Source of the DNA: Tribonema minus
Taxonomy: Eukaryota; Sar; Xanthophyceae; Tribonematales; Tribonemataceae
Length of the DNA: 64,000 bases
Direction: 5' to 3'
NCBI GenBank assembly: GCA_017506865.1
Contig: JAFCMP010000434.1
Location: forward strand, 1 to 64,000
How positions within the stretch are numbered: the first letter of the stretch is position 1; every line of letters starts with the position of its first letter. The translations under genes and the position numbers were made by a program. Below, piece by piece: positions 11,501 to 64,000 of this stretch. The notes below the pieces were generated by a model. It was not told where the DNA came from. It saw nothing but the letters and a program-made list of their open reading frames with translations, and ran no database searches.

Positions 11501-14500
11501 GCTCGGCGCGAGCGCGATGCTGAGGAGATGGATCAGCGGCTGGCGACGGCGGAAGCGCGCGCGGCAGAGCTGGGGGCTGCGCTGCAGGGGGGGGGGGGTG
11601 GGGGGGGGGGGGGAGGGGGGGGGCGTGGGGGGGGGGGCAAGGTCGGAGGACGGCGGGGACGCCATTGAAGATGTGAGAGGATTGTTGATGTTTCTCATAT
11701 GTTAAAATAGCGTGCGCGCTGATATGTCGCTTGGACTGTTGGTAGCACTCCGCGCCATTTCCGGTCTGTGTGGTTGATCGTTGGCATCAGCGCCGCAGCA
11801 GCGGCTTTGGTGGGTACAGGTTTGGCAGATGGGGGAGGGGGGGGGGGGGGGGGGGGTAGTGGTTGGTGTGTGTGTGTGTGTGTGTTTACGGGGGGACCGA
11901 TCGAGCAGCCGATGCGATTGCAGGTGCGTGCTGTCCATCCAGCGCCCGGGTTGCAGTTGCATGTGAAGTTGATCAACGCTGTGGCGCAGCAGCGCTGGCC
12001 AGACAAGGCGCGGCAGCGCTGTGCTCGCGTGATGACGCTACGGCCACATTTGTGTGTGTGGTATGTGAGGGTGGGGATTGCGCGTCTCTGCCTTTGTTGC
12101 ATGCGACATGAGCGCCACCCGATCCGGCGCCCGTCTTGAGCCCTGCACGCTTACTCACTCTCGCGGTGCGCGGCTGCTACCGCGCCTCCAGCCGCTGCTC
12201 CGCTGCTGGCAGTTTACACCTGCGCGCGCCGAGTGCGCTCGGTCCCTGAGCTGGCAGAGCGCTGCTGCTTCATGTAGAGGAGCGTCGCCGCCGCCGTGTC
12301 TAACCGCAGGGCGCCGCGCGAGACGCGCATGCACCCCGATCGGCGGCAGTCGTCGCCGAGCCGTCTTGCCGCGTCCGACGTTGCTTCGCTCCCGAGTTTC
12401 ATGATGAAATCCTGGTCGTTCCTCCATGATAAACTTTGCTCATTCATTTGCCGCTGAGCCGACCTCGCGTCCGCTGCCGCCGCCTCAGGCATCGCCCGCT
12501 TCCCAAAGTCCACCACCACATGCGTGCATAATGCGCACTCGTCAGTTGCATGCACTCGTTCCTGGCGCGCGGCACAGCTCAGGAAGGTGTGACCACGTTT
12601 CCGGGTCGCTTGGCGTGGCAGGCATACGTACATACCGCGTACTCATCAGTTGCCCACGCTCATTCCTGGCAGTCAGCGCAGCAAAACTAAGGTGTGACCG
12701 TGTTTTCATGTGGCTTGGCGTGCCAGGCGGCACGGGAGGCGGAGGAGGTGCGGCTGCGCTGGGGCGCGGCGGAGGAGCGCGCGCGGCAGCTGGAGCGCGA
12801 GCTGCAGCAGCAGCGCAGGTGCCCCCCATCTTTGTGGCAATAGTAGTTGTGTATATACTGCAGACGAAGAGCTGCCGTCGAAGTATTTGGCAGGGACGCG
12901 GCGAAGTATTTGGCAGGGGTGCGGCGGAGGACCGCTCGCGGCAGCTTGAGCGCGAGCTGCAGCAGCAGCGCAGGTGCCCCTTGCTCTGGCAATGGTTCAT
13001 ACGACAGACAAACAGCTGCCATGGAAGTATTTGGCGGCGCAATGCATGCATAGCTGGTGAACATGGGTATGGAGGCATGGCCTGCAGCTGCGCGCCTGGC
13101 GCGCGATGTGCAGCAGCAGCGCAGGTGCTGCTATTGTGGTGGCAGCACAGCGGAGTTGCCGCGACGCAAATGCATAGGGCGCGTAGCAGCTGCCGTCGAT
13201 GCAGCGGTGCGTGAAGGAAGTGAAGCGCCATCCAGCCGGCTGCATGTGCAGGTGGCCTGGTCCTACCCCCACCTTGACCCAAGGGCGCCAAGGCTACCCC
13301 GGGCAGGTCGTGTGCGGCGGAAGCACTTCGGCCAGCACTCAGCCAGACCTGAGGCGCATCTGAAGCGCCGCTCAGCAAACCCGCTGAGCGTTGCAACACG
13401 CTTGAAGAGCGCAAAACAGGAGAACCCAATTGCACGATGCAGCAGCACAAGGGGCTTTGATGTGAGCTGTGCGATCACTTTTCAAGGCTGAAGTCAATGG
13501 CTACGGCCGTTGCTCCGCCAGAGGTCTTTCCGCCCACCCCCTGCCCCGCCCCCCGCTCATCGCCCGCTGTCACGCAGCGACGTTGAGGCGCTGACGCAGC
13601 AGCTCAGCAGCGCTCAGCACGAGCTGCAGCGCGCGCGCAGCGATGCTCAGGACGCACGCAGCGCACTGCAGCACGCGCGCGATGCCGCGGCGCAGGCAGC
13701 GCAGCAGCAGCAGCAGCGCGACGATGACGAAGCGGCGCAGTCCGCCGCCGCCGCCGCCGCTGCTGAGCAGCAGCTGCTGCTCGCGCGCAACGCCGCGGCG
13801 CAGGCAGAGCAGCAGCTGCAGCAGCAGCGGCAGCGCGCTGCGGCGGCGGAGCAGCGGCTGCAGCATGCGATGGACGAGCTGAGCGCTGCGCGCGCCGCCG
13901 CGGAGGCGCGTGAGCGCGGCGTGCAGCACGTTCTTGGCAGTGTGGCACCGCTCAGTGAGGTGCGTGTGTGTGCGGTTTGACACCATATAGATTCTATACC
14001 TTGTTGATTGCGTGTGGCGCTGGTGGGCGGCGTGGCACTGCTCAGCGAGGTGCGCATGCTGCGGTCTCATAGCATACAAAGGTACTTACTGTGAGTTGCC
14101 GTTGTATGCCGTGTGGGCGCTGTGCGGTTGCTGAGCGGGGTGTGGCAGCGCCCACCAAGGTCTTTGCGCCGCGATTTCATACCATGCTTACCCTACTGCT
14201 GTGTGCCTTGCCATGGCACGTCTGGTGCGAGTGAGGAGTTGAAGTTCAGTCATTTCTTGACTGAAGGTGACTGCGAGCAGTCGACACATGGTGAACAAAG
14301 CAGTGATTGTATTCTTAGGCCGATACTGACGCAGTTGTGGAAACGGTTGATATGCAAGGCTACAGGCAGTGGTGACTGATCTCAGTCCAGTGGCCATGTT
14401 CTTGAAACCTGTGAGCAGTCTTGCACTTCATTCAACACGATCACTGTCAACCCTGTTCAACACCACTTTCAAGCACTACTTCTGAGCAGGCACTAACTCG

Positions 14501-16060
14501 CTGCCCTTCTCGCGTGCGCTGCGTTAGGTCGCGGCGGAGGCGTGGCGGCGGCAGCAGCTGCTCAGTGCGCAGCAGCACGGCTCAGACGTTGCTTTGGAAA
14601 TCGACTTTCCGCCGGAGGATGCGGGCGCCGTGTGGCTCTCGCGCCACGCTGCGGGGCTGCTCGAGCAGTTGATGCGGTCGCAGGTGCGCGCCGGTTGAAG
14701 TCTCAATTGAAGTTGATTGCCGTTGTTGTGGGCTCTCGCGCCACGCTCCGGGGCTGCAGGTGATGCGGTCGCAGATGCGCGCCGCTTATGAAAGTTGAAG
14801 TTGCATTTGAAGTTGAAGGAGGATGTTGCGGGGAGCTGTGAGGCTCTCGCGCCATGTTGCGAGGCTGCTCGAGCAGCTGATGCAGTCGCAGGTGCACGCC
14901 GGTTTCAGGTTCAATTGAAGTTGATTGCTGTTGTTGTGTGGCTCCGGTTGAAGTTTCAATTGAAGTTGACTGCCGTCATTGTGTGGCTATCGCGCCACGC
15001 TACGGGGCCGCTTGAGCAGCTGATGCGGTCGCAGGTGCACGCCGGTTTAAGTCTCAATTGAAGTTGATTGCTGTTGTTGTGTGGCTCCGGTTGAAGTTGC
15101 AATTGAAGTTAATTGCTGTTGTTAGTGTGGCTCGCGCGCCACGCTGCGGGGCTGCTCGAGCAACTGATGCCGTCGCAGGTGCACCGCTTACACCAGTTGA
15201 AGTTGAAGTAGAAGTTGATTGCCGTCGTTGCATGGAGCTCTAAGGCTCTCGCGCCATGCGGCAGGGCTGGTCGAGCAGCTGATGCGGTCCCAGGTGCCGA
15301 TCAGCGCGCACCTCGCCAGCGAAAGAACGACAGAGCGCGCATGCGTGCGAGGCCACGTGGGCATTGCTCACTCCTGTGCTGCATGGTGCTGCCGCGTGCC
15401 GTACAAGTTGGGGTAGAATCGGAGAACCAGCCTAATCTGCGCGCTCGCTTCGGGCGCTGATGATGATGTTTAAGTGGAATGAAGGTCTTGGAGTGTAGAA
15501 CGTCGAAACCGGTATCGTACAAGGTGGAAACATAGTGATGACTAGGGTCATACACGCACGAGTGCATTGACATACGCTTGGTGGTACCACAGCCGCCAGG
15601 CGCGTACGGCAACAACCTTGCAACAGCTGTAGCTCCAGAGTAAGTCACTTCACCTCCGAGTGCCACTCTCTGCGGGACTTTACAGTGATCAATGCTTTTT
15701 GCATGTGCTTTTTGGCGTTTTTGCCTGTGCAGGATGCCGTGTGCACAGAGCTACAGCGGGCGCTCGCAGGTGAGCTCTGCCGTGCAAACTTGAACTTGAA
15801 CTTGCAGAGGGCATTTGAATTTGAAGCAGTACCGTGTACGGCAGCGTGGTGAACTCATGACATGGGCAGTCCTTGAAGTGGAACACAGACGGCATGACAT
15901 GGTCAATCCTTGAACTGGAACACAAACGGGCGCGTGTACGCAGTGCTTGAACTTGAATATGTTGCTCTTGATCTTCAAGATAGTACTCCTTTTTTTGCCA
16001 CTGCTACAAAGCGGACTGTGGTGAACCGCTGCAGCACTCAATGAGTTTGACACTAGGCTG

Positions 16061-16130
<70 letters not shown>

Positions 16131-19100
16131 TGTTGCAGCTGCCAAGCTACAGGCGGACGAAGATGCGGGCGCGGAATGGCTTGCCTCGCGCGTTCAGCAG
16201 GTAAATACAGATGCCCCTCAGTATGAACACTTCAACAGTACGTTGGAACCACAACTCCAACAGTACTTTGCTGACGACACAAACTGGTGGAACCAGACCT
16301 CAATATTTGCTTAACAATTGCTTAGAGGCGAAATGTAACTTGAAAAAATTCCCTGCGCCACGGCAAAACCGCCGGCGAGCGCGCGCCGGCATGCACGTTT
16401 TGAAAAGCGCGCTGTCTGCACGAGTGTAGATGGCTGTTGCTGAACAGTGTCTCGGCGAGGGGAGGGATGGCGCAGGCGAGAGGACGCGGTCGTGCTTGAC
16501 CAATGGTGCAGCCGCTGTACTCACGCAGCTCAGATCCTGTACTCGCGCGGTGCAGGTGCTCACACTGTTCGCATCATGTACTCGCGCTCGATCATGCGGT
16601 GCGGACGCCGTGCCCGCACACCTCGGGCCCTGTGCTTGCGCGGGGTAGTTAGGGTTAGGGTTAGGGTTAGGGTTAGGGTTAGGGTTAGGGTTAGGGTTAG
16701 GGTGCCTGCCTACCTCGGATGACTTCAGATGCCACGTACGTGCGTGCATGCTTCGCGCCTCAATCGTGGCTGCAACGCAAGAGAATGCTGCTGCTTTTTG
16801 GGGGGCGGGGCTCCACGCCCCCCCCCAGCAGCTCCGTCCTGGGTTGCGGGTTGGGGTCAGGGGTCCATGCACCCCAAAAAGCGTTCCGCCGCATATCGTG
16901 TCCGTCAACGCATCTAGTGGCAGCTTGAGACCATAATCAGGGTTACTCGTTCCTCTGCTGCGCTGCATTGAATTTATCTTGCGCGCGTCTGTACGGAGGT
17001 CACCTGCTGAGTATTACTGCCACCTGTACGATTGTCATCCCTTGTCGCACAGGCCATGACGCGGCTCGTTGCGGATGCCGGCAGTGCTCAGAAGGTGAGC
17101 ACGCATGCAGGCCGTAGCATGCACTGAGTAGAGTCAGAGTAGAGACGTAGAGTCATGGAGAGGAGGCACAGAGTGTTCAGACGCTCGCGGACGCCGGCGA
17201 CGCTTGGCAGGTGAACGAGCATGCAGGCCGCGGCACGCACTGAGTAGACTTGTTAGAGTACAGTCGCTTTTAGGAGTAGAGTCGAGGAGTAGAGTCACGA
17301 CGTGCATAGATGCATCAGGAAAAAGTATGAATGCACTTCGTGTGATGCATCGGGTGGGCAGGAGCGCCGTGCGCGTCGCCGGGCACGTCAAGTCAGAGCA
17401 CCGTCAGTGACTCTGAGTCTCAGGTTGTGCACCTCAAGTGCCTCCTGAAGCATCAGAGGGGAGTCACAGTCAGTGCGTCATCAGGGACAGTCCCGTTGCA
17501 CAAAGCAGCACAGAGGGACACTTCTATACTTCTACACTTTTGACGCCGAGTCACAAAGCGTGTACTTCAAGTATCTCTCGCGGCTTGGAGAGTTTGAAGT
17601 AGGGATGTCAACTGTGGCGCTGCTTCAGAAGGCAGCTTTGCAAACGGCAACGGCAGCTCGCAGCGTTCGCGAGGAGCGGAGTCAAGGAGTGTGTGAATGC
17701 GTGGGTCGAGAGCTTCGGTTCGGGAGCCATTTGTGATGATCGGCGTCAGACTGAGCTGTGGTCAACTGTGTATCTTTGTGGACTTTGCAGGCTGGCACGC
17801 AGGAGCTGTCGGAGCTGCGCGCAGAGGCGGCGCGGCTGCGTGATGCGCTGCAGAAGCAGGCCGCGGCGGCGGCGGCAGAGCTCGCTAGCCGCGACAAGGC
17901 GACCGCCAACATGCGACAGGTGACGCACCTACTTCACCCTTGAAGCACACCACTCACACAGTAGGTCACACAAACCGCTCACACAGAAGCAGGCCGCCCG
18001 CGGCGGCGGCGGCGGCAAAGCTCGCCAGCCGCGACAACGCGACCGCCAACATGCGACAGGTGACGCACAAACTTCAACTCTGAAGCCTCACACACACAGT
18101 GGGTAGAGCAGCGGAGCTCGCTGGCCGCGACAAGGCAACCGCCAGGATGCCGCAGGTGACGTGTAATCTTCAGTCTTACCATACTTCAGAGCCACACACA
18201 CAGTAGGTAGATATAACGGGGCTTGCTGGCCGCGACAAGACGACCGCCAACAGCGACAGGTGATGTGCACACTTCAAATCTGAAGTAACATGAGTTACGT
18301 TAAAGCCTTGCACACAATAGGTAAGTGTGGCAGAGCTCGCCAGCTGCGACAAGGCGACCGCCAACAGCGATAGGTCACACAAAAAACTTCAACTTTGAAC
18401 TACTCCATACAAACAGTAGGTAGGTATGGCGGGGCTCGCTGGCTGCGACAAGGCAACTGCGGACATGCGACAGGTGATGTTTCACAAGTTTATAAGACGC
18501 ACATGAAGTGAAGCATATTTCACAGTGACGCACACAATGTACTTCTCTATGATGTAGTCATACTTTCATGTACTTTAGAAGTTTAGGTGGAAATATGTGC
18601 AAAATTGGCAAGCAGGAAGTATATACACATAAGTCATACAAGTAAGTAATGTTTACGTATTCAGAGTTGGCACTCAAAAGCGCTTTAAAGCATGAACGAC
18701 CTCCCCTGTATACAGGTGTCAGACAAGCTCGAGCGTCCGCAGCAAATCCTCTTCGTTCAGAGATCGTGCTGCCACAAGAGGTCTCGCAGGGCTCAGCCGC
18801 CCTTGCTGTGCCTGGTGGTACTTCGAAGTATACGCCGAGGTGTTTCTGCTCGACGGGGACATCGACCACGATGAGCCGTATCACTGCACACTTTGGGCGG
18901 CTTGCCAGGCGCCTCTCGCGTGCAAGCAGCAGCAGCAGCGGCAGCAGCAGCAGCAGCGGCAGCAGCAGCTGCAGCAGCACATTCTGAAGCGGCCTCAGCA
19001 CGCACGCAAGGGGCAGAAACGGCCGCGGCAGGAGGTTTTTCGCGTACGACAGCAGCGAGGAGGAGCTGGAAGACCTCCTGAGAGAGGACAACGGGAAGAC

Positions 19101-22100
19101 CTCCTGAGAGAGGACAACGAGGACGCGTGCACCATCCACTTGAGAGTGCTCATGGCAGGTCGCCCACAGCGTGCAGTGATATGGCTCATTGTGGTTGATG
19201 TTCTTCGTCCAGCAGAAGCACCTCGGCGCGCAGCACCGGGCACGCTGCCACTGCAGCAGAGCCCTGGCCTCACGTGGAATCGAAGCATCAGGCACACCGC
19301 CACGGTTGCAGAGCCCCGCTTGGCCTCTCGTGGCATCACGCTCTCTGAGAACTCCTGCACATGGAGCCGCGAGCTGGACCTGCGCCTGTTGATAGTGCTT
19401 CGCCGCCTGCTTCTTAGGGCTAGGGTTAGGTTAGGGTTAGGGTTAGGATCAGGCCAGCGCGAGCGCCGCTTCCTTTACGCGCCTTTGTGCCTTCCATGGA
19501 TCTGGTGGTGTGTGGTGCACTGCTGCTTGCACAGCGCAGTTCTGCTTGCCCCGAGAGGACTTGTTTCAACATTGGAATCCGCCGAGAGTTGCTTGAGCCA
19601 CTGAGGGCCTTGTTGCGCTTTCAGGGAGGCTCGTGGAGCCTGCCTCCGCTGCACGGTTTCTCTGCTCTAAACCTAACCCTAATTCTTGCCATTGCTCGCC
19701 GTCGAAATGCTTCAAATCCCGTTGCCGGGCCTTCACGACCTCCTCCTCTTGGGGATCACTCTTGTTCAAGGAATTCTCTAGAGTTCAGTTCAACTACAGA
19801 AGTGTCGACGTTTTTGGGAGGAGCCTGTGTGTGATGTGATAGCGGAAGTGATAGCGGTTGGAGTAGTGGTAGTGCTAGCAGTAGCAGCCCTGTGCAGTTA
19901 AGCAAACAGCCACATAGTAGTGCCTGAGTATGCCCCCCCCCCCCCCCCCCCCTCTTCCAGGTCATGGAGCAGATCCGCAGATCTGCGCACGGAGCGACGG
20001 CGGAGGCTCAGCAGGCCGTGATGGAGGCGTCAAACAGCCTTTCATTTGCCATCAACGTCCTACCTGTCTACCTGACCCCCCCCCCCCCTCCCCTGTCACC
20101 TCGAACCCCCCCCCCCCCCCCCCTCACCTTGACCCCCCCCCCCCTTCGTCTTCCAGGTCATGGAGCAGATCCGCAGGTCTGCGCACGGCGCGACGGCGGA
20201 GGCTCAGCAGGCGGTGGAGGAGCGCGATGCGCTGGCGCAGCGGCTGCGCGCCGCTGCCGCCGAGACAGACGCGCTGCGGCGCTCGCTCGAAGACGCGCGC
20301 CACTACCGCTCCATGGCGGAGGTGCACATTTTTGTGTGTTGTTGTTGTTCAATAAATACTTCGTAAATTCGTGTATCTGTAGGCTGGCATAATGTGGCTA
20401 TTTGTGTGGAAATTCACTTTTACAAGCGTTATTCCGTCCTCGATGGAATGAAATTTTTCTTTCTGCCACCAGCGCTTGATTGTGGACGTATAGGTGTTCA
20501 TAGCGCTTGATTATTCATGGATGCGGAATGAAGCGCCTGTGCGCCGCCGCCGCCGAGACGGACGCGCTGCGGCGCTCGCTCAAGGACGCACGCCACTACC
20601 GCTCCATGGCGGAGGTGCGCGTCTCCATTCTTTCATGTGTTTGTATCACTCTTTGATTCACTGATGAATGTGGAGCGCCTGTGCGCTGCTGCCGCCGAGA
20701 CGGACGCGTTGCGGCGCTCGCTCGGGGACGCGCGCCACTACCGCTCCACAAGGTGTGCATGTTTATTATTTGCTCAGCAACTTTCTCATCGTATCTGAGC
20801 TTATACATCAATATAACATGTTCAAGGCGTTCTGAACCTCTGATTTTGCTGAAAAGCACAGCTCTTGTGTAGCTCGTCAACCACTTTTGTTTTGTCCTTG
20901 GTATGTGTATCACTTGTTGATGCATATATTCAGTTATGTGCACGCTGCCGGTTGTTGAACTATATGATAGTGAAGTAGGTACATGCCACCGCCGCTGAGG
21001 AGGACGCGCTGCGATGCTCACTCGAGGACGCGCGCCACTACCGCTCCATGGCGGAGGTGCGCAATTTTGTTGTTTGTTGAACAAACAAAAAAACTCAAAA
21101 AACTAAACAATAAATCAACAACGCGCCAATGCCGCCGTGAGTCACTGCCGTTCGGTGACGCATACTTGAAGCTTTTAAGATATTTTAAAATGTTATTTAT
21201 CCAGACCTGAAGTATTTCAGGCGCGCTGCGAGGCGCTTGATACTCGCTTACCATTGTCAGAGGTGCTCAATCTACTTTTTTCTGTTAGACTGGTCTACGA
21301 CTGCTGTGATAATGTGATCCTCAACACCGGCAACGCGTGCGCGGTGCCGCCACCGCTGTCAAGGCGTACGTGCCGCGGCGCTTGCTTGAGAATTGCTGCC
21401 CCACGGCAGCGTTGTGCAGCGTTTTCCCTGACGTACAAATTGTAACGAATTGGTGTACGCTTCACTGCGAAATCAGCGATTTCAAGTCATGGACACCACC
21501 TGGTTGTAGTACGTCAGTAGCCCGCGCGTCAACCGCTCCATCTGTAACTTCAACTGCCACCTGGGAACTTCAACTGTTGACCGCAGGCCGGCGGTGAGGA
21601 GCGGGTCGCCCTGGAGCAGGAGCTCAAGCACCTGGAAGAGCAGGTGAAAAATGCGTCTACAGCGTTAGCATGGGGGATTAGACTAGGGCTACTTAGGGCT
21701 AGGGGTAGGGTTAGGGTCTGATGTGAATGAGTGAACAAGCACTGCGCGCGTGCAGTCACCTTAGGGTCAGGGTTACAGACAGCACCCAGTGGTGACAATC
21801 ATTTCATATTGTGAGGTAAGGCCATCTTTTATGGGCACAAAAGTCCCATTCAAAACGGATCGGGCGTCGCCGCATTGAGCCTGCGCCATGCAAACGTCAG
21901 CAGTTCTGCGCCTGTTCGTCTCAAAGAGTCCGTGCCCGATTTGCGTGGCCGTTCTGTTTGCCTCATTTTCACGCAAAAGTCCAGGTCACTTTTCTTCGAA
22001 GCTGGCGTGGATTTAAAAGGGGCGTTTGGGCCCCTTTTTACATCGCCCGATTTGATTGCCATAAAAGACGGCCTAAGTGTCGTTGTTCGTTATGTCAGGT

Positions 22101-42101: not shown

Positions 42102-42214
42102 CTATGATATATGAAAACGAATCAAAAGATCGTAGAGCTCTAGGTGACAAAGGATGGTATATATATGTTCGTCACATATATACGTTTCGTTGCAACCATA
42201 CCCAGCATTTAGAT

Positions 42215-47957: not shown

Positions 47958-48215
47958 GCACGCTGCTTGGGGGGGGGGGTCACTGCCCTCGAAATGCCCT
48001 CTGAGCACGCTGCTTGGGGGTCGCTGCCCTCGAAATGCCCTCTAAGCGCGCTGCTTGGGGGGTCACGGCCCTTGGAATGGAAATGCCCTCCAAGCACGCT
48101 GCTTGGGAGGGGGTCACTGCCCTCGAAATATCCTCGAAGTACGCTGCTTGGGGGGTTGCTGCCCCCTGAATCGTGCCCCGGCGTGCCTGCGGGGTCTCCT
48201 CCCATTTGAATTGTG
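47946..48215 (+). repeat. Tandem copies of the PSMA2 stop-codon region
   Basis: The segment containing the stop (gaagccctttaagcacgctg) is followed by five or six ~45-50-bp copies: 'gaaatgccctctgagcac', 'gaaatgccctctaagcgc', 'gaaatgccctccaagcac', 'gaaatatcctcgaagtac' and a weaker one. Each has 'gctgcttgggg' and a G run. The duplicated edge here is the end of the coding sequence, not a splice site. Confidence 0.88.
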
Positions 48216-48760: not shown

Positions 48761-48973
48761 GGGGTATTATCAGACACTTGACTGCGGTGCCCTGTGGCGT
48801 CCGCATCTTCTTTTCGTAGCGAATGAGTCTCGTTTCTGGGCTACCATGAATCTACCGCATGAAATAAACGACTCTTTGGACAACGCTGAATGTGTAGAAA
48901 CGAGGTTTCTTGATAACAGTGTGTTCCGTGTCACTCACTTTCGGCCCCTCCGTTTCCTTATAAATGCCCCGAT

Positions 48974-49945
48974 ATGTGGACAAAATTCTTCGAGTTTCTG
49001 CCGCATGGACGCTACCTTCAGCTGTCTTCCATGAGCACGGGGTGGCGCGCCCTGTATGCCAGCAGCATGCAGCGCAGGGGGGAGGAAACAGCACAGAAAG
49101 AAACGGCTGCAATGGCAATGATTGCATCCCTGCCGCTCATGCAGTGGGCGGTAGCGAACGGATGCGAGGCAACCACGAGGCTGTTGCAGTACGCCGCCGC
49201 GTGCTGCCCCCTAGACGTGCTGCAGTATTTACACGCAGACCTTGTGCGGCGGGGCATCGGCCCGTCTCAGACCACGCGCGTGTGCAACGCTGCCGCGGAG
49301 CGCGGGCACCTGGAGATGCTGCAGTGGGCGCGCGCTCAAGGGTTTCGCTGGAGCCGACTCACGATCGCCGCAGCGGCGCGCTGAGGGCACCTGGAGGTGC
49401 TGAGGTGGGCGCGCGACGCCGGGTGCGGGTGGGACGATGCGACATGCAGTGGCGCCGCGGCAGGCGGCCACCTGGACGTCCTCCAGTACGCACGGAGCCA
49501 CGGCTGTCCGTGGAGCGATGCAACGTCCTTGAACGCGGCGCGTCACGGCCAGCTGCAGCTCCGGCAGTGGGCGCACGCGAACGGCTGCCCCTTGCACCCC
49601 AACATGCACTGCACGGCCGTGCTCGCAGGCCACCTGCATGTCATCCAGTGGCTGCACGACGTAGGCGGCCCCGTCGACCCGCAGGCATGCGCGCTTGCCG
49701 CGCGGCAGGGGCACCTGGACGTCTTGAAGTTGCTGCGGGCGCGCGGCTGCCCGTGGAATGGAGAAACGACTCTTGCATTTTTAGCATATTCGGTGTACCC
49801 GGTCGGGAGTCGCCACCTCAGCAGGGTAACGTCAACGGTAGAGTGGGCACTGGCGAATGGCTGCCCGTGTAGCGACACGTGTAGGTCTCGGTATGCGCAG
49901 CTACAGCGCACAGTGCAGGCTGCCGAGGCAGGCGGCTATATGTAG
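48974..49945 (+). pseudogene. F-box/ankyrin-repeat protein, interrupted by TGA
   Basis: The frame starts with an F-box-like segment (MWTKFFEFLPHGRYLQLSSM, GWRALYAS) and continues with divergent ankyrin repeats of the form GHLEMLQWARAQGFRW, GHLDVLQYARSHGCPWSDAT, GHLHVIQWLHDVGG and GHLDVLKLLRARGCPWN. An in-frame TGA at 49382-49384 interrupts AAAAR/GHLEVL, at a place where other repeats have Arg, Gln or Gly. The same frame then stays open to TAG at 49943-49945. The sequence before 48974 looks like the front of the F-box in another frame (CPDMW), hinting at a second break. Such proteins often act as ubiquitin-ligase adaptors and form large families in algae. One base change would explain the stop, so a recent null allele is possible. 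Confidence 0.75.
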
Positions 49946-55280: not shown

Positions 55281-58200
55281 TCATGCGATGCCCGCAGGTT
55301 CCGGCGTCGACGGCAGGAGGTCGAGGGCGTCGCACATGATGGTGAAGTACGGTTCCTGAAGGCCGAAGAGCTGCGTGAGCTCCTGCATGTAGCCCTGCAG
55401 CAGGCGCTTGCGCATGAGGATGAAGGCCGGGTCCTACGGGGGTTTTGGGGGGGGGGGGGGGGTAGCGGCGGCAAGGGCAGGTTGAGCACCAGTGCTGTAT
55501 TGTGCGATAAACGTTCGCAAGTGCACATACATATATAGCGATACACACATATGTATACGCACGGGTGCTGCGGCAGTTTCGGGGAAAGAAATGGCGGGCG
55601 GCGAGGATGCACGGGCAGCGAAGCGCTGGCACTGTACTGATGTAGTGCGCTGATAATCGTGTGCTGAACTGCAAGAGGCGACGTGCCTGTTGCGCCACTG
55701 CGCGCCTCACTGGGCTTGAGTACCGTGGGTACAGAGCAATGCGCCGCACACCGCGGCGACAGCAGCGCCAGCGTGGAGGAGCGCAAGCGGCATAGCGGCG
55801 GCGGTGCGAGCAGGGGTGCGCGGTGCTTCTCAAGTGCAGGTTAGGGTTAAAGTTGGGGTTAGGGTCGGGTGACACGCAAGAGGGACTCTGCGCCGTGACA
55901 CATGGGTTCGCGAGGTTGTTGTCGTCTTTGGCACACAGCGCACACGTGGGGCAGCCGAGATTGCTGCGGCGGTGCCACAGTGCGAGGCGGCTTGAGGCTA
56001 CAGGTGGCGAGGCTTGAAGAGCTTTGCTGTGCTGCACGTGAGCGGTGTCGCAGGTGCGCGATGAGCCATACAGCAACGAGTCATCACGAACCACAAACCA
56101 TGATCACCTCGTCTGTTGTCCACACGAGCATCTGAATTTGATGTTCTATGCGAAAAACATGCAGCGCAGCACAAACCCCCAGCAGCAGCGCCCCACTTGT
56201 GTATTTCATCGTGCAATTGTGCAATTGAAAAAGCAGGCGGCAGCGCTGCGACGCACGCTGCTGTCAAGCAGGTGCAATTGAAAAAGCAGGCGGCAGCGCT
56301 GCGACGCACGCTGCTGTCAAGCAGCAAGGTGATGCTAATGCGTGCCTTGCAGGCTGCTGCTGCTTCTTGTGCACTGATGACAGACGGCCTGAAGTGGCCT
56401 TTATAGTTGAAGTGAACCACTTCAACTTTGAAGTGGACCATGTCGCAAATCCATGAAGGCGCTCACCTTCTGGTTTTGCACGACCTTGCCTTTGCCAGGA
56501 AGTTCCGGCAGGCTGTTGAGAAGCGGCGAGTCGGCGTCTTTCAGCGTGCGCCGCAGCCTGTCGAGCATTGCCGCGCACGAAGGGTTAGGGCTGAGGGGTT
56601 AGGGTCAACCCTGAGCAGCGGCAAGTTGACATCCTTCAACGTGCGCCGCAGCCTGGCGAGCGTTGCCTTAGGGTTAGGGTTAGAGTTTGTGAGCTGAACT
56701 TTGGTGGCAGTTGTGGGTGCGCGGCAGATGAAGACGAGGAACAGTGCGCTCGCGCAGCCTGGCGCGCGTTGCTGATGTGGGCTCTTTGAACCCCCGGGCA
56801 CAGTCAGTTATGGACACATTGGTCTCTGTTTCGAATTGTGTGCTGTGGTGTAAACCATGCGGACATGGCTAGGTTATCCCCTACGCATGCTTTTCAGGCA
56901 GGCAGTACCTTGTACCCATTGTCACTGGAGCGCAGCGGCAGCCAAGTCATTGACGTCCAAGTGGCAACGTGCCTAAAGCTCATCAACGTCAAGTTGTGAC
57001 ATGCCTGTCGTGCAGCTTGTTGAAGTCTCTGTGCAGCTCCTCCATCTTGAACAGCTATGCAAGAAAACAACATCACCTGAGCAATGCCACAGAGGACAGT
57101 AGCAACTCTGACTTCAACTTCCTGCGGCGACTTGCCTGTTGTGCAGCTTGTTGAAGTCCGTGTACAGCTTCTCCGTCTTGGAGTACCACGCGCGCCACTC
57201 GGTCACCACCTTGAATACGACAACATCGCCAAAGCTCCTGTGCCCCACAACTGACACCTGTTGTCGCAGCAGTGACAGCGGCAGCGGAATGACATGGATG
57301 ATCAGATGCAGCAATGTGCACGAGTTTGTGAAGAAATGCAGTGTCATTTACGACCTCGAAACACCACCACATCGCCAAAGCTCCTGTGCCCCACAACCGA
57401 CACCTGTCGTCGCAGTGAGGCGGAATGACATGAATGATCAGATCACGTGAAGTGCAATAATACTGAAGCAACAAATGATCAGATCACGTGAAGTGCAATA
57501 ATGTTGAAGCAACACAGCAGTCATTCACGACCTTGAACACCACTACATCGCCAAAGCCCCTGTGCCGTACGACCGACACCTGTTGCGAGGTGGCGAGCGC
57601 GGCAGCGGAATGACATGTGTGATCAGAGATGCAACGTGCGATCAGATACCGCAGACTGCACCAGTTTGAATGAAAGCAGTGTCATGTACGACCTTGTACC
57701 ACAACGTCACCAAAGCTCCTGTGCCCCACGACAGACACCTGTCGTCGCAGCAGTGAGAGCGGCAGCGGCATGACGTGGATGGTCAGATAGCACGTAATGC
57801 GCTACTTTGAATGAACGCAGGTGTCAACGTAACAGCAAGAACTCACGGTGGCATTGGAGCAGTTGCAGCACCTGGGCGAGGGACAGAGTGTATAGCAGCG
57901 ATGCTCGGAAAAGTCAAAAGAAGAGGACGGCGCCCTCAACTTCATCGCGTGTGTGGGTATTCATACCCAGCAGTTTCATGGCACGTATCGGCGCGTGTTT
58001 CCACAAGATGTGCGTCACGTTGCGTTTACTTCTACCGTATGACGGTTACATCCACGGTTACAGTCTACCGTGTGACAACTCTGTGTGTTTAGAAGTATTC
58101 ACTCTCGTTTGGCCCGGCACATGCGGCGGCGATGCCTCTCAGCCTCTTCTGCTGCCCTTGCAAGTGCACGAAACACTGAATAACATTTTCAGGTTGTTCA

Positions 58201-61200
58201 CTGTCACCTGTGCGCAGCGCGCTCAGCGACCCCGCGCATCTGCGCTCAACGTGCGGTTAGGGTTAGGGCTAGGGTTAGCACGCACCTGCACAATGCGGCC
58301 AGCTGCGAGTGGCGCGTGGGCTTTGTAGGGGTTCTGAATTGCCGCTGTCATCACAGCGGTGCATCCATAGCGAATGCAGAGAACAGGCAGAACGGTGCTC
58401 GATGCCTACCCTAACCCTAACCCAGCACGTCGCCTGCCGAATGCACTTCTGCGGTATGTGCCAGGTAGCGGGCCAACTTTGGTGCGAAAGCGCTAGGGCT
58501 AGAGCTAGGCTGAGGATTCGTGGTTTGCGTACCTGCAGCAACTCTCATCACCTGCCGCATGTGCTTCTACAATTTGTGCCACATAGCACCCTCGCTTAGC
58601 GTCTGTTGGGGTAGATTTAGAGTTCATACGTTGCGTGGGGTTAGGGTTAGGGGCTGGGTTACGGTTTTCATTTTGTCGCATACCTGCAGGAACTCTTTGA
58701 ATGGGCTGCGTCCAAGCGACTCCAGGTAGCGCCGCCGCAATGGGTTCTTCAACTGTGGGGGATGGCGGCGGGCAACGGTGGCAGCGATCAACATGGTGAA
58801 TGGGCGCGACACATTAAATGCACAAATTCTGCAGCACCCAAATGATGATTGCTGAATTAATCAGAAGCGCGGAATATACTCTGGACTGCGCCTTGTGGAC
58901 TGGGTGTTGAACGCGCAGACGCAGACGCGTGTACACATGGGGTACGTATTGCTACTACCATTAGTAGACATCTGTGCTCCGCAACCCGCTTCTTTTTCGC
59001 ATTAGCGTCATAATTGTGAACGCACAGACACGGACCCATGTCTACATTGCAGGTGGGCATACATGGTTGCAGTACAATGAGGTTGTAACAGAATATACTG
59101 CCAAAGTACAAAATTTACATGGGGTATGTATCGATTATAACACTACCGCCTGATATAGAAGTACATAGGGTAAGTATACTATACTCCGCAACTATCCATG
59201 CCGTCATCGTGCATGCCGTCAACTGTGTAGACACGGCATACATAGGGTACGTTCATCCAAACTACGGCCTTGTATACACGAGCACCCCGATCTTGTCCCT
59301 GTCATCGGCGCTCTGGCTGTCGAACACATATACACGGACCCAGGCGCTATGTGGCATTGGGCATGTATGCATACTGAAAACGCTGTCGTGCATACATACG
59401 TACCCCGATCTTGTCCATGTCGTCGGGGCGCAGGCCGCGCGCGCTGATGCGCGCCATATCGACGAGCCCCTTCGCCTGGAACATGGGCCACAGGTCCTCC
59501 ATCTTGAGGCAGCGCAGCCACTCCTGCATGCTAACGCCCTGGCAAGGGGGTATGTACGTATGCCAGAGGGGTAGGCAAGGGTATGGGGGTGAGGGGACAG
59601 CGCGTAACATGCTTGAAGCGATGTTGTAATGATGAAGTGCATCGGACCACAACCATTCCTCCATGATACTCATTACCAGTGCACATATTGAGGCAACGTA
59701 GCCACTCCTGCATGCTGACGCCCTGGCAGAGGGGTACGTATGTATGCCAGAGGGGTAGGCAGGGTATGGGGTGAGGAAACAGCGCGTAAAATGCTGAAAG
59801 CGATGTTGCAATGATAGAGAGCACCGGACCACAGCCATCCATGCATGATGCCCGCGCCCTGACAGAAGGGCGTACAGGTAGGTAGGCATGGGATGAGAAA
59901 ACGGCATGCGCGCTACGGTCAAAAGCGCGTTGTCGTGAGCGCCGCGCAGCCGCTCCTGCGCGCTCAAATACGCCCAGCGCAGGGCGTAGTGTGGGGATGT
60001 TGGTATGATGAGGTCGTGAGTACCTTTGCGTAGGGGGCGTGTACACTTTACATGTAGACATGAACTTAGTCGTGCACCTAACCTCTGCCGCTCTGGCAGC
60101 GCCTGCCCCAAACCTCCGCCGATCATGCCTCTGACATGCACACATTCGAATACTTACCGCCAAACCCCACCTCAACCCAACCCAACCGCCGACCCTGAGC
60201 AACTGTGTGGCTGCCACCGCCGACAGCCAATACATGCCAGAAGAGTGAAAATGCCTAACAAGGGCCCCCCAGGGCGCTTGCGGGTGGCGGGCTCACAACA
60301 GCAGGGTCCAACCGTAACCCAGCCCTGACCTTGCGGGGAGTCGGCGCCCTCTGCGCCGTGCTCCATTGTCAACACTGCAGCACCACGTCATTCATGCCTA
60401 TCGTTGACTTACATATAGCGATGTCACAACGCTTTGCAGCGACGATGCCAAAATGCTGTGCCTGGTCGGCGGCAGGCGACTGGTGGTGGTTTGAAGTCAG
60501 GGGCTTGGGTTACGCCACCGCAACGCCAGTCCCTCATGCCCATCACGTAACATGTTCCTTGTAATTTGACTTCAAAGTACTGATGTAATGAGGGCAGACA
60601 ATAAATGAAATGAGGGCAGACCTGGTCGCTTGCGGGCGGCGGGCTCATGACGGCGGGATCGGTGCCCTCCGCGCCCTGCCCACTGTCAACAACTGCACAT
60701 TGAACAACACATTATTTGTTGTCAACGCAACACCTTTGACACAACGCATTGAAATGATTCACCAACACTCAATTCTGTACCTGATCGTTTGCGGGCGGCG
60801 GGCTCATGACAGCGGGATCGGTGCCCTCCGCGCCCTGCCCGTTGGCGTAGTCGATGCCGCTCTGTATGGCGCTGAGCCATGCCTCGAGGCTGCTGGCGTT
60901 GGTGGCCGCCAGCTCCATTTCCTGCAGCGGGGGAGAGTTGAAGTCGAAGTTCCAGCAGGGAATGAGAGAGGGGGGTGGCAGGATCAGGACTACATAGGTC
61001 AAATAGCATGAGGGCGCTGAGCGATGCCTCGAGGCTGCTGGCGTTGGTCGCCGCCAGCTCCATCTCCTGCGGCAAATAAACAAAAACGGGGTTGAGGTAA
61101 GTGTCGAAATTGTCAAGGCTTACAATGAGCGAGGGTCAGAATGAGGGCTGAATAGGTCAATATAGCAATATGGTGCTGAGCCTTGCCTCGAGGCTGCTGG

Positions 61201-63604
61201 CGTTGGTCGCCGCCAGCTCCATTTCCTGCAACAGAGAGTTAAGTCGAAGTTGGAGCAACGGTTGAGAGGGGGCTGCAGGATGAGGGTCACATAGGTCAAA
61301 TACCAAGATGATTTGAAGACGGCCCTTAGGGTATATGTATATAACCAGGGCAGGCACAAAGGTTGGTATGCATGCGCACCTCGGGGCAGACGAGGTTGTG
61401 CACGCTGTCCTCCTCGCCGAATTCTAACAAGGGTTCAAGTTCAGCAAGGGCCGCGTTTGACAGGCATGTAGGTAGGTATTCACGCACAACCTCGATGCGC
61501 GCTGTCCTCCTCGCCAAGCTCTAAGTAGGGTCGAAGTTCAACAAAGGGTTATGTTTTGACAGGCGTGTAGGTAGGTATTCGCGTGCACCTCGAGGCCGAC
61601 GAGGTTGTGCGCGCTGTCCTCCTCGCCAAGCTCCAAGTACGCTTTAAGTTCAGCAAGCGTCTGACAGGTAGATATTTGCACACAACCTATATGTGTGCTG
61701 TCCTTCTCACCAAGCTCCAAGTAGGGTTGAAGTTGAGCAAGGGTTACGGTTCACAGCCACGTACGTAGGTATGCACACGCACCTCGAGGCCGACGAGGTT
61801 GTGCGTGCTGTCCTCCTCGCCGAGCTTGACAACCTGGAAGCGGTTCGTCTTGCCGCGCACGAGCGTGCAGCCGCGGAGGTCCACCTGGCAGCGGCGGCAG
61901 CAGCGAAACGCGCAGTAGGGGCGTCACATGTTGCAGTACGAGTCTTGCCGCGCACAAGCGTGCAGCCGCGGAGGTCCACTTTAAAGCGGCATCGGCAGCG
62001 AAGTGCGCAGTAGGGGCGTCACATGTTGCGGTACGAGTCTCGCCGCGCTCGAGCGTGCAGCCGCGAAGATCCACCTAGCAATGGCGGCGACGGAGCGTGC
62101 AAGCGGGCGCAGCGGCTGTGCACGCGCGGTCAGCGATCGACACGGCCATTGCGCGACCACGCCACAGGGGCACAGGCATATGCAATAGAACGTGATGTTG
62201 CCGATGCGGAGAGACTTGAGGCAAGCAGCGGCGAGTGCAGGTTCATGTGGCGGCGGCTACAGCGACAGCGTGCAGCACGGGTGTCACATGTTGAAGTACG
62301 AAAGGCATGACCTCAGGGCATGGTCATGCGGATGGGGATGGGGCCCCCCCGTCCTCGCATGCGATGGGCTCGCTGCCCCTTGAAGGCACGCATGACAAAC
62401 TTCAAGTTCAGCCGCGCACGGGCGGTGCAACCGCATTGCAACTGACCGCGGCGGCACAGCGCGCAGGCAGGCGCGATCAGCCGTCAGCGTCGGCGCCTGA
62501 ACGACACGGCCGCTGCGCAGCCGGTCGTGTCACGTACGCCATAGAGAGAGCGGGCGTAGAATGTGCGCGGGGAGAGACGTGAGGTGGGCAGCAGCTTGCA
62601 GCAGTTGACACAGGCCAACGACACTGGGCACGCAGCTGCCACAGAGCCCCAAGCAGGGTCGTCCATGCTTTGAGACATCTCCTGACCTCACTTAGCCACG
62701 CATAAAAGCTTACATTTTCGATGTGGCCTCCGTCCTTGTAGGCAATGAGCTCGCCCCCCTTGAGCACGAACCAGCGCTTCTTCCAGTTCCTGAAGCCCAG
62801 GCCCTGGTTCTTGACGTGCAGGTAGCCCATCTTGCTCGGGATGAAAGCCTGGCTGTTGTGCTGGCTGTCTGCGCGCGCGACAGCACCCGGAGGTTGGGGG
62901 CCAAGAAGGGGGAAGGGGGGGGGGGGGGGTAGGTCAGCACGCTGCCGACTCCACAGGAGCTTTCTAGGGGGTGCAGAGCCCACGGCGGTGGACGCGCAAG
63001 TAGTTTTGGGCTCAGCAGTTGCGTTGGAAGCAGTGCAGATGTGCCGATTGCGCGGTGCGAGCGCTGCGTAAAGCGCGCAGTTGCACGGGAAGCGCATATG
63101 CTTAACCATAACCATGACCCTCACCCTCACCCTACACACAAACGCATGCAGGCAGCCTTTCCCTGGGCCTGGTTGCCAAGGAACTTCAGAGGTACTACCC
63201 TTCGACAGAGCTTCTCGCTCACCGTGCCCGAGGACTGGCGACAGGCCCTGCGCGCCCCTGTTGGCTTCAGGGCAGCAGCGGCTGCATCTCGGAGAGTTGA
63301 TAGGCTGGCGCTGACCCTAACCCTTCTCCTAACCCTCATATTTTAAAACCCTGTTACGCCAGGGCTGGCCCTAACTCAAACCCCCTTGACCCTCATCGTC
63401 ATCCTCATCTCAACCGTGCAAACAGCGCTCACCGTGCCCGAGGATTGGCGACAGGCCCTGCGCGCCCCTGTTGGACTGCGGCGGCAGCGGCGGCATCTCC
63501 GAGGGGTAGTCGGAGGCGTCGGTGGGGGTGGCGGCGGGGCGCTCCGGGGGGCGCGGCGCACGCCCTGACAGCGATGCCTGTGCCAGCGCCTGCTCGAGGG
63601 TCTC
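55281..63604 (-). CDS. PH-SAM-PX domain protein, last nine exons (5' end outside window)
   Basis: Minus-strand exons in gene order: 63604-63433, 62868-62714, 61884-61783, 60921-60781, 59538-59404, 58752-58684, 57257-57136, 56557-56467, 55433-55281. All phases agree and give 379 residues to the TGA at 55281-55283. A Pro/Ser-rich stretch leads to a PH domain (MGYLHVKNQGLGFRNWKKRW, FVLKGGELIAYKDGG, KTNRFQVVKLGEED, ASSLEAWLSAI with the conserved Trp). Next is a SAM domain (MQEWLRCLKMEDLWPMFQ, GLRPDDMDKIG, LKNPLRRRYLESLG) and a PX domain (VSVVGHRSFGDVVVFKVVTE, KLYTDFNKLHNRLRRTL, SLPELPGKGK, FILMRKRLLQGYM). PH and PX bind phosphoinositides and SAM oligomerises, so a membrane-trafficking scaffold is likely. 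The intron after 57136 begins with GC (gcaagt). I know no named family with this order. Confidence 0.8.
56560..56780 (-). repeat. Upstream copies of PX exon 56557-56467 start
   Basis: On the minus strand 'gcaggctgcggcgcac'-like starts recur at about 56655-56600 (ending near 'cttgccgctgctcaggg') and, weakly, near 56765. The intervening sequence includes TTAGGG tracts. The copy nearest the exon is best preserved. Confidence 0.75.
56930..57135 (-). repeat. Downstream copies of PX exon 57257-57136 end plus donor
   Basis: The end of the exon (GAGAAGCTG…TTCAACAAGCTGCACAACAG) is copied at 57050-57003 as 'gaggagctgcacagag' and 'acttcaacaagctgcacgac', followed by 'aggcatgtcac' in place of 'aggcaagtcgc'. 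A fainter trace lies near 56960. Confidence 0.75.
57258..57760 (-). repeat. Upstream copies of PX exon 57257-57136 acceptor and start
   Basis: The sequence encoding VSVVGHRSFGDVVVFKVV with its acceptor (gacag or caacag) recurs at about 57410-57345, 57595-57520 and 57745-57680 (+ strand pattern 'ccaaagctcctgtgcccca'). Each copy is followed by intron sequence containing 'aatgacactg' or similar. Confidence 0.9.
58520..58683 (-). repeat. Downstream copy of SAM exon 58752-58684 end plus donor
   Basis: At 58530-58560 the + strand 'gcgtacctgcagcaactct' copies 'gcatacctgcaggaactct' at the exon end (FKEFLQ plus donor GTATGC). TTAGGG motifs lie in the intron of each unit. Confidence 0.7.
59265..59325 (-). 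repeat. Downstream copy of SAM exon 59538-59404 end plus donor
   Basis: At 59281-59312 the + strand 'caccccgatcttgtccctgt' copies 'taccccgatcttgtccatgt', the segment encoding DDMDKIG with its donor. Only about 35 bases match. Confidence 0.75.
59539..59960 (-). repeat. Upstream copies of SAM exon 59538-59404 acceptor and start
   Basis: The exon start encoding GVSMQEWLRCL, its acceptor and about 100 bp of intron ('atgccagaggggtaggcagg', 'aacagcgcgtaa') recur at about 59685-59800 and, more diverged, at 59840-59925. A remnant ('gccgcgcagccgctcctgcg') lies near 59945. Confidence 0.88.
60280..60680 (-). repeat. Downstream copies of PH exon 60921-60781 end plus donor
   Basis: The exon end (GTDPAVMSPPPANDQ plus donor) is copied at about 60675-60617 ('ggcgggctcatgacggcggg' on the + strand, donor gtctgcc), less well at 60500-60460 and 60360-60280. 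Intron tails include 'aacacattatttgttg'. Confidence 0.85.
60922..61240 (-). repeat. Upstream copies of PH exon 60921-60781 start
   Basis: The start encoding EMELAATNASSLEAWLS and its acceptor is copied at about 61070-61010 and 61229-61165 (+ strand 'cgaggctgctggcgttggtc'). Both carry the intron block with 'gttgaagtcgaagtt'-like and 'cataggtcaaata' sequences, so units are about 150 bp. Confidence 0.92.
61365..61782 (-). repeat. Four downstream copies of PH exon 61884-61783 end plus donor
   Basis: The exon end (KLGEEDSTHNLVGLE plus donor GTGCGT) is copied near 61650-61583, 61535-61490, 61425-61375 and, with losses, near 61715. Each has 'aagctccaagta' or similar on its 5' side and 'gtaggtatt' on its intron side. 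Confidence 0.9.
61885..62080 (-). repeat. Upstream copies of PH exon 61884-61783 acceptor and start
   Basis: The start encoding VDLRGCTLVRGKT and its acceptor recur at about 61985-61925 and 62075-62015 with 'acatgttgcagtacgagtc' intron blocks. The + strand pattern is 'cgtgcagccgcggaggtcca'. Units are about 90-100 bp. Confidence 0.92.
62884..62935 (-). promoter_or_regulatory. Poly-C polypyrimidine tract before PH exon 62868-62714
   Basis: On the gene's strand a C-rich run lies about 35 bp upstream of the acceptor at 62869-62870. Choosing that acceptor, rather than the CAG at 62851, is what keeps the phase with the preceding exon (GH-D-SQHNSQAFIPSK). Confidence 0.6.
63215..63320 (-). repeat. 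Downstream copy of exon 63604-63433 end plus donor
   Basis: The + strand 'ctcaccgtgcccgaggactg' and 'gcgacaggccctgcgcgccc' at 63219-63275 copy the same block at 63428-63475, the exon's 3' end with its GTGAGC donor. TTAGGG/CCCTAA motifs follow in the intron part. Confidence 0.9.
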
Positions 63605-64000
63605 CTGCAAGGGGTAGGTAGGTATGGCATGTGTGAGGGGGGGGGGGGGGGGGGGAGGGGAGGGGGGGTGAGGGGGTATAGTCGCGTGCCCCGAGAGCGA
63701 CGCCTGCGCCAGCGCCTGCTCCAGGGTCTCCTGGTAAGGGTAGGCAGGTATGGCATGTGGGCGGGGGGGGGGGGGGGGGGGGGAGGGGGGTCAGGGGGTA
63801 TAGTCGCGCGACGCCTGCGCTAGCGCATGCTCCAGGGCCTCCTGGAAGGGGTGGGTAGGTATTGCATGTAAGGGGGGGGGGGGGGGGGGGGGTATGGTGT
63901 GGGTACGCTTCGTCTCGGGGTGTTCTGGAAGGGGTAGGTTTGGCATGTGTGTGGGAGGGAAAGGGGGGGGGGGGAGGGGGGGGATGGTGAGGGTAGGTTG
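63605..64000 (-). repeat. Upstream copies of exon 63604-63433 start, acceptor and poly-C tract
   Basis: Three further units begin near 63735, 63845 and 63935 (+ strand 'cctgctccagggtctcctgg', 'gggtaggcaggtatggcatg', then a long G run). On the gene's strand each is a poly-C tract, an acceptor and the start of ETLEQALAQASLSG. The G runs on the + strand are therefore amplified polypyrimidine tracts. The array runs to the window edge. Confidence 0.92.

Follow-up and report, generated by a model that had tools for sequence, protein, structure and literature searches.

The question raised by this stretch of DNA (the window, 64,000 nucleotides) is whether the tandem arrays that span exon-intron junctions in its genes mark the splice junction as a special place for duplication. 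According to the sequence-only reading, introns here grow by repeated duplication across junctions, leaving decoy splice sites; its neutral alternative was that tandem duplications happen everywhere and only those leaving one working junction survive.

The arrays in the golgin, PSMA2 and PH-PX genes were confirmed. Each junction (40 exon plus 40 intron bases) was aligned, with gaps allowed, to its own intron, and a score of at least 44 was required, compared with a maximum of 33 over 80 shuffled introns. By this test, and with corrected junction positions, at least one junction-crossing copy lies within the adjoining intron at 21 of the 50 splice junctions of the three genes, giving 51 copies in total (Table 1). 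Crossing copies were found at 8/14 donors (25 copies) and 1/14 acceptors (1 copy) of golgin, 3/4 donors (9 copies) and 2/4 acceptors (2 copies) of PSMA2, and 3/7 donors (5 copies) and 4/7 acceptors (9 copies) of the PH-PX gene, the biggest array being that of seven crossing copies at the golgin donor after 27667. Three more PH-PX donors have exon-side-only copies and, like the acceptor-like copies before 63604, whose upstream exon was not set, are outside these counts; adding both to the 21 junctions makes a tally of about 25 separate arrays a fair one. The claim that copies keep GT or AG holds for 40/51 copies in the window and 115/146 overall, but not for the remainder.

Table 1. Junction-crossing copies and associated features of the window, with strand and the basis of each assignment.
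Feature	Position	Strand	Basis
golgin exon ending 12818 + 2 downstream donor copies (12934-12996, 13090-13144)	12727..13144	+	alignment, sequence reading
golgin exon ending 13959 + 1 donor copy (14011-14076); weaker one near 14110 by eye	13578..14076	+	alignment
golgin exon ending 14683 + 4 crossing donor copies up to 15225; related runs on to 15297	14528..15297	+	alignment
golgin exon ending 17094 + 1 donor copy (17187-17248)	17053..17248	+	alignment
golgin exon ending 17919 + 3 crossing donor copies (18020-18098, 18221-18285, 18335-18414); exon-part runs on to 18477	17791..18477	+	alignment
golgin acceptor copy upstream of exon starting 20157	19937..20000	+	alignment
golgin exon ending 20321 + 3 donor copies (20575-20648, 20717-20764, 21017-21084)	20157..21084	+	alignment
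golgin exon ending 24448 + 4 donor copies (24563-24644, 24726-24805, 25957-25994, 26112-26179)	24338..26179	+	alignment
inserted element splitting golgin array after 24448	~24837-25896		by eye
golgin exon ending 27667 + 7 donor copies	27482..28354	+	alignment
PSMA2 exons 42881-42998, 44618-44786, 45725-45881, 46997-47122, 47820-47957	42881..47957	+	frame, PF00227 match
PSMA2 acceptor copy upstream of exon 2	44409..44471	+	alignment
PSMA2 exon 2: 5 donor copies	44871..45434	+	alignment
PSMA2 exon 3: 3 donor copies, none with GT (GC, GC, TT)	46041..46405	+	alignment
PSMA2 exon 4: 1 donor copy	47178..47244	+	alignment
PSMA2 acceptor copy upstream of exon 5	47568..47636	+	alignment
PH-PX gene: 3 acceptor copies upstream of exon starting 61884	61942..62475	-	alignment
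PH-PX gene: 3 donor copies following 61783	61351..61627	-	alignment
PH-PX gene: acceptor copy upstream of 60921; second near 61066 by eye	61186..61257	-	alignment
PH-PX gene: 2 acceptor copies upstream of 59538	59684..59999	-	alignment
PH-PX gene: donor copy following 59404	59259..59317	-	alignment
PH-PX gene: 3 acceptor copies upstream of 57237	57350..57756	-	alignment
PH-PX gene: donor copy following 57136 (GC)	56983..57043	-	alignment
acceptor-side copies upstream of exon at 63604 (~63841-63815, 63730-63686), outside counts	63686..63841	-	

That a single set of junctions joins in phase was borne out for golgin, whose 15 outer exons form one stop-free 666-aa frame (the splice from 27667 to 28908 completes a GRAB domain match), and for PSMA2 (proteasome alpha-2), whose five outer exons encode 235 aa that match PF00227 in full. 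No new intron gain was found in these two genes, as the proteins read through the outer junctions alone. No exon of the PH-PX gene was recovered between 59404 and 57237, and the two halves of the gene are thus in different frames; its SAM part had no Pfam match at E 0.01. Identity loss between copies is about 10-25%, with indels, and they are therefore not assembly duplicates. A few near-identical pairs (e.g., 56219-56324) are of the kind that an assembly artefact would leave, but the same pattern occurs across many contigs and we regard an artefact as scarcely credible.

The junction-crossing pattern is not local to the window. Elsewhere in the same 158-Mb genome (236.5 kb sampled) crossing copies were present at 47/166 junctions, so that window and outside together have 68/216 such junctions. 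With the earlier, uncorrected window junctions the crossing copies numbered 147, of which 52 lay in the window, again at 21 junctions. The outside set comprised 83 introns of 150-2500 bp with exons of coding score at least 8 and length at least 45 bp. Gene models were ab initio and trained on the same sequence, and some of their exons are surely wrong; 102 of 114 profile rows were used, 8 of the 102, containing stops, being excluded from training. Before counting, 83 of 384 predicted exons were flagged as decoy copies and dropped, as were the 14 introns, of 54, over which the profile match was not continuous, and removal of low-complexity centres retained 269,921 of 300,529.

The genome also has 92 matches to the chlorophyll a/b-binding family, which point to a photosynthetic eukaryote. 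One of these proteins best matches the solved chains LHCI, ACPI, CAC and ACPII, which we take to be largely red-lineage and cryptophyte antennae, and another had no match at E 1e-10. A search for the phycoerythrin alpha family gave no match, which does not imply its absence from the genome.

The repeats have a characteristic size and arrangement. Among recent events (at least 38/40 matches), 64/76 fall at 90-210 bp, as do 108/157 merged arrays by median lag, or 95/157 if only the smallest lag is taken. The nearest copies are mostly head-to-tail, with no gap >12 bp between units in 51/67 cases and spacers in 16/67, a contiguity to be read against the finding that unrelated sequence extends by chance to a 95th centile of 139 bp (60 controls). 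In 89/203 cases the sequence between matched runs showed greater similarity than any of the 19 controls. Of the high-identity events, 7/55 rows (some rows being repeated) were contiguous without gaps, which is few for a microhomology reading.

The repeats are also concentrated in introns. Outside the window a local copy was found for 1122/5169 intron windows compared with 118/2687 beyond predicted genes, the intron rate being higher at 21 loci, lower at 4 and tied at 1, and ten other loci gave 70/801 and 15/556, respectively. The contrast is weaker in the window itself (335/1696 versus 71/639), and local copies occur in 50/434 windows >2 kb from any predicted gene, perhaps in genes that were missed. 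Genes vary hugely, from 0 to 51% of intron windows duplicated. Longer introns have a greater duplicated share (rho 0.52, 108 introns), in support of the earlier claim that introns grow by tandem duplication.

Are junctions then a preferred place for duplication? In a permutation test, as suggested with the original claim, arrays crossed junctions about twice as often as under random placement (19/28 versus 8.5 expected in the window, 46/67 versus 21.4 outside). Taken at face value these figures, 65/95 arrays versus about 30 expected, would favor duplication targeted to splice junctions, with splicing, R-loops or exon-edge chromatin as the provocation. As a raw count of ungapped genic arrays, purely intronic ones are indeed fewer, as had been supposed (window: 19 crossing, 1 touching, 8 without a junction; outside: 71, 7 and 24). 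However, the copied exon part diverges about half as fast as the intron part, which is what a constrained real exon would predict, and crossing arrays therefore stay visible longer. When only intron evidence is used, 29/76 arrays reach an intron end, compared with 36 expected if duplication is blind to junctions with free overhang and 5.3 if it is confined to introns. Intron-only arrays are thus no more frequent at intron ends than a junction-blind process predicts, and the neutral alternative therefore fits best; the view of the junction as a special place is not upheld by this test.

Other comparisons are divided. Duplication is 1.82-fold more frequent in windows centred on junctions than in interior windows (CI 1.37-2.27), which exceeds the 1.26 obtained when slower exon decay is simulated. 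Intron edges of the three window genes give an ungapped ratio to the interior of 1.50 (6/39; CI 1.06-1.67), and profile-supported junctions have ungapped copies at 9/66 donors and 14/71 acceptors compared with 10.1% of intron interiors. On the other side, ungapped intron-edge windows outside the window are duplicated in 18/217 cases versus 8.0% for the interior, and in 39 introns with continuous profile support the junctions give 9/73 versus 9.1%. For windows lying immediately within the intron ends, the rate of duplication is 1.31 times that of the interior (CI 0.99-1.72). There is no clear junction preference in these data; one of up to about 1.7-fold is possible, and there may be some extra duplication at junctions, although we consider targeting as such unlikely. 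The edge-ratio, identity, decay, order and contiguity tests used earlier, hand-set window junctions, several of which were off by 1-2 bases and one by 13; the corrected set still places one golgin position at 14529 instead of 14528.

The fate of the copied sites is that of DNA without selection. Copied exon bases retain an identity to the original of 0.90 and copied intron bases one of 0.77-0.81, while the GT and AG positions are at 0.899 and 0.929, the pattern expected if the real site alone is constrained. The claim that duplication leaves decoy splice sites is supported. Decoys also resemble one another more in their exon parts (identity 0.868) than in their intron parts (0.754), a difference not expected of a neutral array whose copies all arose at exactly the same time; staggered births from a constrained exon explain much of this, though not surely all. 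The nearest decoy has the greater similarity to the real exon end in 26/35 arrays and the farthest in 8, with one tie (p 0.003), a trend missing from the intron part (20 versus 15).

Tandem exon duplication with mutually exclusive splicing also places exon copies in a neighbouring intron, and in this respect resembles the arrays of this alga. Here, unlike in that system, the copies are partial, have one junction each, are mostly out of frame and are decaying, with only 8/140 decoys offering a usable in-frame alternative. This bears on the idea that selection keeps the decoys for a function, whether as alternative ends of exons, as reserve splice sites or as regulatory decoys. The retention of GT or AG in most copies is in keeping with it, as is the fact that the top decoy equals or outscores the real site in 21/32 donor and 11/29 acceptor arrays. 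However, GT and AG decay at the pace of the adjacent copied exon bases, indels break the frame in 49/60 copied exon parts, and intact decoys are weaker on average than real sites (donors 7.45 versus 8.8 bits, acceptors 7.05 versus 8.08). Nor is there a frame preference: distances from decoy to real site are even modulo 3 (49, 55, 42; p 0.42), a slight lean to 0 in the spacing of successive copies (59 at 0, 38 at 1, 49 at 2) being missing from them, and the insert is open in the true frame in 24/140 cases compared with 36/280 for other frames. We therefore think it very unlikely that the decoys are functional.

Junction-crossing tandem duplication is not without precedent, and the suggestion that no description had been published was too strong. 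An account of the potato RdRp gene (PMC4974935) describes a tandem genomic duplication running from the end of an intron into the exon that follows, with the parent's splice signals present in the copy, and another duplication, of 83 bp, that is wholly intronic. The likeness is in head-to-tail copies with a splice junction inside the unit (51/67 contiguous and 68/216 junctions here). The potato case concerns one gene, which gained an intron and additional exonic sequence through the duplication, whereas the crossing copies here lie within existing introns. We found no report of such arrays at scale in the open-access collection searched, judged largely from titles and the openings of abstracts.

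The arrays could also be traces of intron birth, either by duplication in tandem of an AGGT segment within an exon or by introner-like mobile elements. In the Rogers model (PMC3443670, PMC2891723) intron gain follows duplication of an AGGT exon segment; as in this alga, tandem duplication touches coding sequence and harm is avoided by splicing, and donors here tend to CAG|GT with copies in tandem. That model turns exon into new intron, and its signature, an intron end similar to the upstream exon end and an intron start similar to the downstream exon start, was seen in 1/336 introns, that one being low-complexity. Introners have likewise added intron sequence on a large scale in a range of eukaryotes, protists included (PMC9860276, PMC7789003), and, according to PMC9860276, are disproportionately common in aquatic lineages. 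They form dispersed families, whereas at the one locus tested the copies are local to the junction: a 601-bp golgin query found itself and three local copies, and most of its 14 weak matches elsewhere fall on a part of the query rich in C. Intron birth by either route is highly improbable as the source of the arrays.

The process that we favor, and think probable, is short tandem duplication indifferent to junctions, followed by neutral decay, as a means of intron growth. Duplications, mostly of 90-210 bp, would keep arising within genes of the alga and would heed exon-intron junctions little or not at all. Those within exons would usually be lost by selection, and intronic ones would be tolerated, as would those lapping a junction, because splicing from the outermost donor, or to the last acceptor, would connect the exons as before and make the extra copy part of the intron. 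In this way introns would lengthen, and lapped junctions would leave decoy splice sites free to decay unselected, with new ones tending to appear beside the real junction and to push older ones deeper. We infer that the process is mutational, most likely arising from break repair and fill-in, and that splicing of the RNA uses the outer sites. Small tandem duplications can stem from fill-in repair of breaks whose ends protrude (PMC8355091, which cites rice "patch-mediated" work); these are likewise head-to-tail and a plausible source of the arrays, although introduced there as short insertions <100 bp, compared with a mode of about 150 bp, mainly in introns, here. A more tentative, and on balance doubtful, proposal is that duplication is specific to gene bodies, with a unit close in length to the nucleosome repeat (about 150 bp), and tied to transcription or nucleosome-spaced nicks; it would then be the chief cause of intron growth in the alga, with junctions keeping a layered record in which the youngest decoy lies by the exon and the oldest deepest.

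The arrays offer a concrete route for intron lengthening, and illustrate how nearly junction-blind mutation together with exon conservation can yield a striking junction-centred pattern. They are also a natural experiment on splice-site choice, since 21 of 32 donor arrays hold a copy that scores as high as the donor required by the protein. Should RNA data show the outer sites to be those in use, the choice of splice site in these genes would have to rest on position or exon context.

We read positions 12000-64000 of the window directly and also compared the window against itself. The junction-crossing repeats that the sequence-only reading had described in three genes, golgin (+), PSMA2 (+) and a PH-PX gene (-), were recovered at 21 of 50 window junctions, with 51 intron-located copies (decoys) in total. 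With all copies left out, the PSMA2 exons encode 235 aa and match the proteasome family over its full length. Similarly, 15 golgin exons without copies form a single 666-aa frame, and a golgin splice bypassing seven donor copies completes the match to the GRAB domain. The third gene had been named PH-SAM-PX; its PH and PX parts have matches, but its SAM part has none at E 0.01.

The crossing-copy pattern is general beyond the window. Our outside set comprised 30 stretches (236.5 kb) of the same assembly (554 contigs, 158.18 Mb), selected as loci of CCT-family (PF00118) and proteasome (PF00227) genes. We trained a gene finder first on 94 coding pieces backed by profile matches (83% GC at third codon positions) and then on its own output; it predicted 337 introns and 384 exons, with donors tending toward CAG/GTGCGT or GTAAGT and acceptors toward CAG/G. 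Queries of 40 exon and 40 intron bases, searched against the adjoining intron, found 95 copies among 83 well-scored outside introns (donors 23/83, acceptors 24/83). In profile-supported exons the copies sit on the intron side of the junction: for centres 20 bases within the exon, 18/69 donors and 17/68 acceptors had a copy on that side, and 0/69 and 0/68 on the exon side. Independently of gene models, some of the profile positions matched by an exon recurred next to that exon in 4/62 CCT-family, 1/52 proteasome and 3/134 kinesin rows, counts read from tables by eye and covering large copies only.

The nearest copies had a median exon part of 66 bp and a median distance of 155 bp, and 51 of 67 were contiguous with or overlapped the real unit. 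The other 16 had spacers, and stretches between matched runs were clearly similar in 89 of 203 cases, both of which blur head-to-tail contiguity. Distances of 90-210 bp accounted for 64/76 of the most recent events and for 108/157 (median) or 95/157 (smallest distance) merged arrays; the lower edge of this range is less sure than the upper because the method misses two-copy units below ~45 bp and is weaker at 50-90 bp. The copies decay nearly as unselected DNA does: GT and AG positions are conserved as much as neighbouring copied exon bases, indels in copied exon parts break the frame in 49 of 60 cases, and distances are even modulo 3, with in-frame use possible for 8 of 140 copies. Decoys resemble each other more in the exon part (identity 0.868) than in the intron part (0.754), with the largest differences at third codon positions, as would arise if a constrained exon gave rise to its decoys one after another rather than all at once. 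Of the nearest and the farthest decoy, the nearest was the more exon-like in 26 of 35 arrays and the farthest in 8; for the intron part no nearest-to-farthest order was found (20 vs 15).

The permutation check proposed in the earlier reading came out positive, with crossing arrays numbering 19/28 in the window (8.5 expected) and 46/67 outside (21.4 expected), counts attained in 0 of 500 permutations. The view of the junction as a special place for duplication was nevertheless not borne out. Intron-only arrays extended to 12 bp or less from an intron end in 9/23 (window) and 20/53 (outside) cases, where 10.4 and 25.6 are expected if arrays overhang freely, taking an array's width as its visible width, and 1.0 and 4.3 if they are confined to the intron; the combined 29/76 thus compares with a free-overhang expectation of 36. 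Just inside intron ends, an ungapped test found 18/217 windows duplicated outside vs 8.0% of interior windows, and 6/39 in the three window genes (edge/interior ratio 1.50, CI 1.06-1.67); a gapped test overall gave 41/180 vs 17.5% (ratio 1.31, CI 0.99-1.72). Based on these tests, duplication ignores junctions to first order, and a modest junction preference is possible. Crossing arrays remain recognisable for longer because their exon part diverges about half as much as their intron part (~10% vs ~20%), as expected if the real exon is held while the rest drifts. Such slower decay alone predicts a junction-window duplication ratio of 1.26; the observed value is 1.82 (1.37-2.27).

Local copies were found in 1122/5169 intron windows vs 118/2687 windows outside predicted genes in the outside set, 335/1696 vs 71/639 in the 64-kb window, and 70/801 vs 15/556 in ten further loci (four chosen regardless of genes). 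By locus, introns exceeded non-gene sequence in 21, fell below it in 4 and tied in 1. The duplicated share of intron windows ranged from 0 to 51% among loci and rose with intron length, from ~5% at 150-450 bp to ~32% above 900 bp. Among PF00118-family loci, two (L011 and L013) had 0/215 and 5/193, whereas three (L009, L017 and L018) each exceeded 40%; no cause of this contrast was found. Windows >2 kb from any predicted gene had a local copy in 50/434 cases, which counts against a strict gene-body rule, although undetected genes may be the source. Because of this far-from-gene signal, we consider it rather unlikely that gene-body-specific duplication, with a unit near the nucleosome repeat (through transcription or nucleosome-spaced nicks) and layered at junctions, is the main engine of intron growth.

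Other features along the window are listed below. Golgin array copies flank the element at 24837-25896 on both sides, and this element, perhaps a non-autonomous hAT relative, is therefore younger than part of the array. The repeats in the predicted exon indicate that in-frame tandem duplications may survive in coding sequence too. The telomere-like repeats might mark repaired breaks, and the ankyrin-like frame is perhaps a decaying gene.

Additional features of the window
Feature	Position	Strand	Description
Tandem repeats in predicted coding exon	3403-4698	-	153-bp units (51 codons)
Interstitial telomere-like TTAGGG repeats	16648-16703; 19414-19447; ~50845-50870; 58255-58280		In introns and intergenic
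Element in golgin decoy array	24837-25896		Ends of same kind as hAT-type transposon (by eye)
hAT-type transposon	39473-42102		hAT dimerisation domain PF05699; ends TAGGGTTGGCA and TGCCAACCCTA (by eye)
Short-unit array	47974-48164		~41-bp unit, directly past PSMA2 stop codon
Ankyrin-like open frame	48990-49950		Long, broken by a stop (by eye)

We propose that a mutation process acting chiefly in genes would generate short tandem duplications, and that introns would lengthen because these are tolerated within introns and across junctions. The likeliest source would be repair of breaks or nicks with fill-in, giving head-to-tail copies, for which published fill-in duplications (PMC8355091) offer a break-repair comparison. 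The unit size resembles the nucleosome repeat; links to nucleosomes and transcription are conjecture. In potato, a duplication across an intron-exon boundary in one gene created a new intron (PMC4974935), whereas the Tribonema minus arrays lengthen introns and, in the two genes that were read through (PSMA2 and golgin), leave the protein unchanged. Intron birth by AGGT duplication is not seen: its signature occurs in 1 of 336 introns, and that one is low-complexity. Introners are dispersed, whereas the alga's copies were local at the single locus tested; its matches elsewhere were weak and fell mostly on a C-rich stretch. The arrays are set apart from these known cases by their scale, depth and effect.

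Decoys are weaker on average than real sites, but with a matrix trained on predicted introns, some of them decoys, 37/71 intact donor and 18/49 intact acceptor decoys equalled or exceeded the score of the real site, as did the best decoy in 21/32 donor and 11/29 acceptor arrays. If RNA confirms use of the outer sites, site strength would be insufficient by itself to decide splice-site choice.
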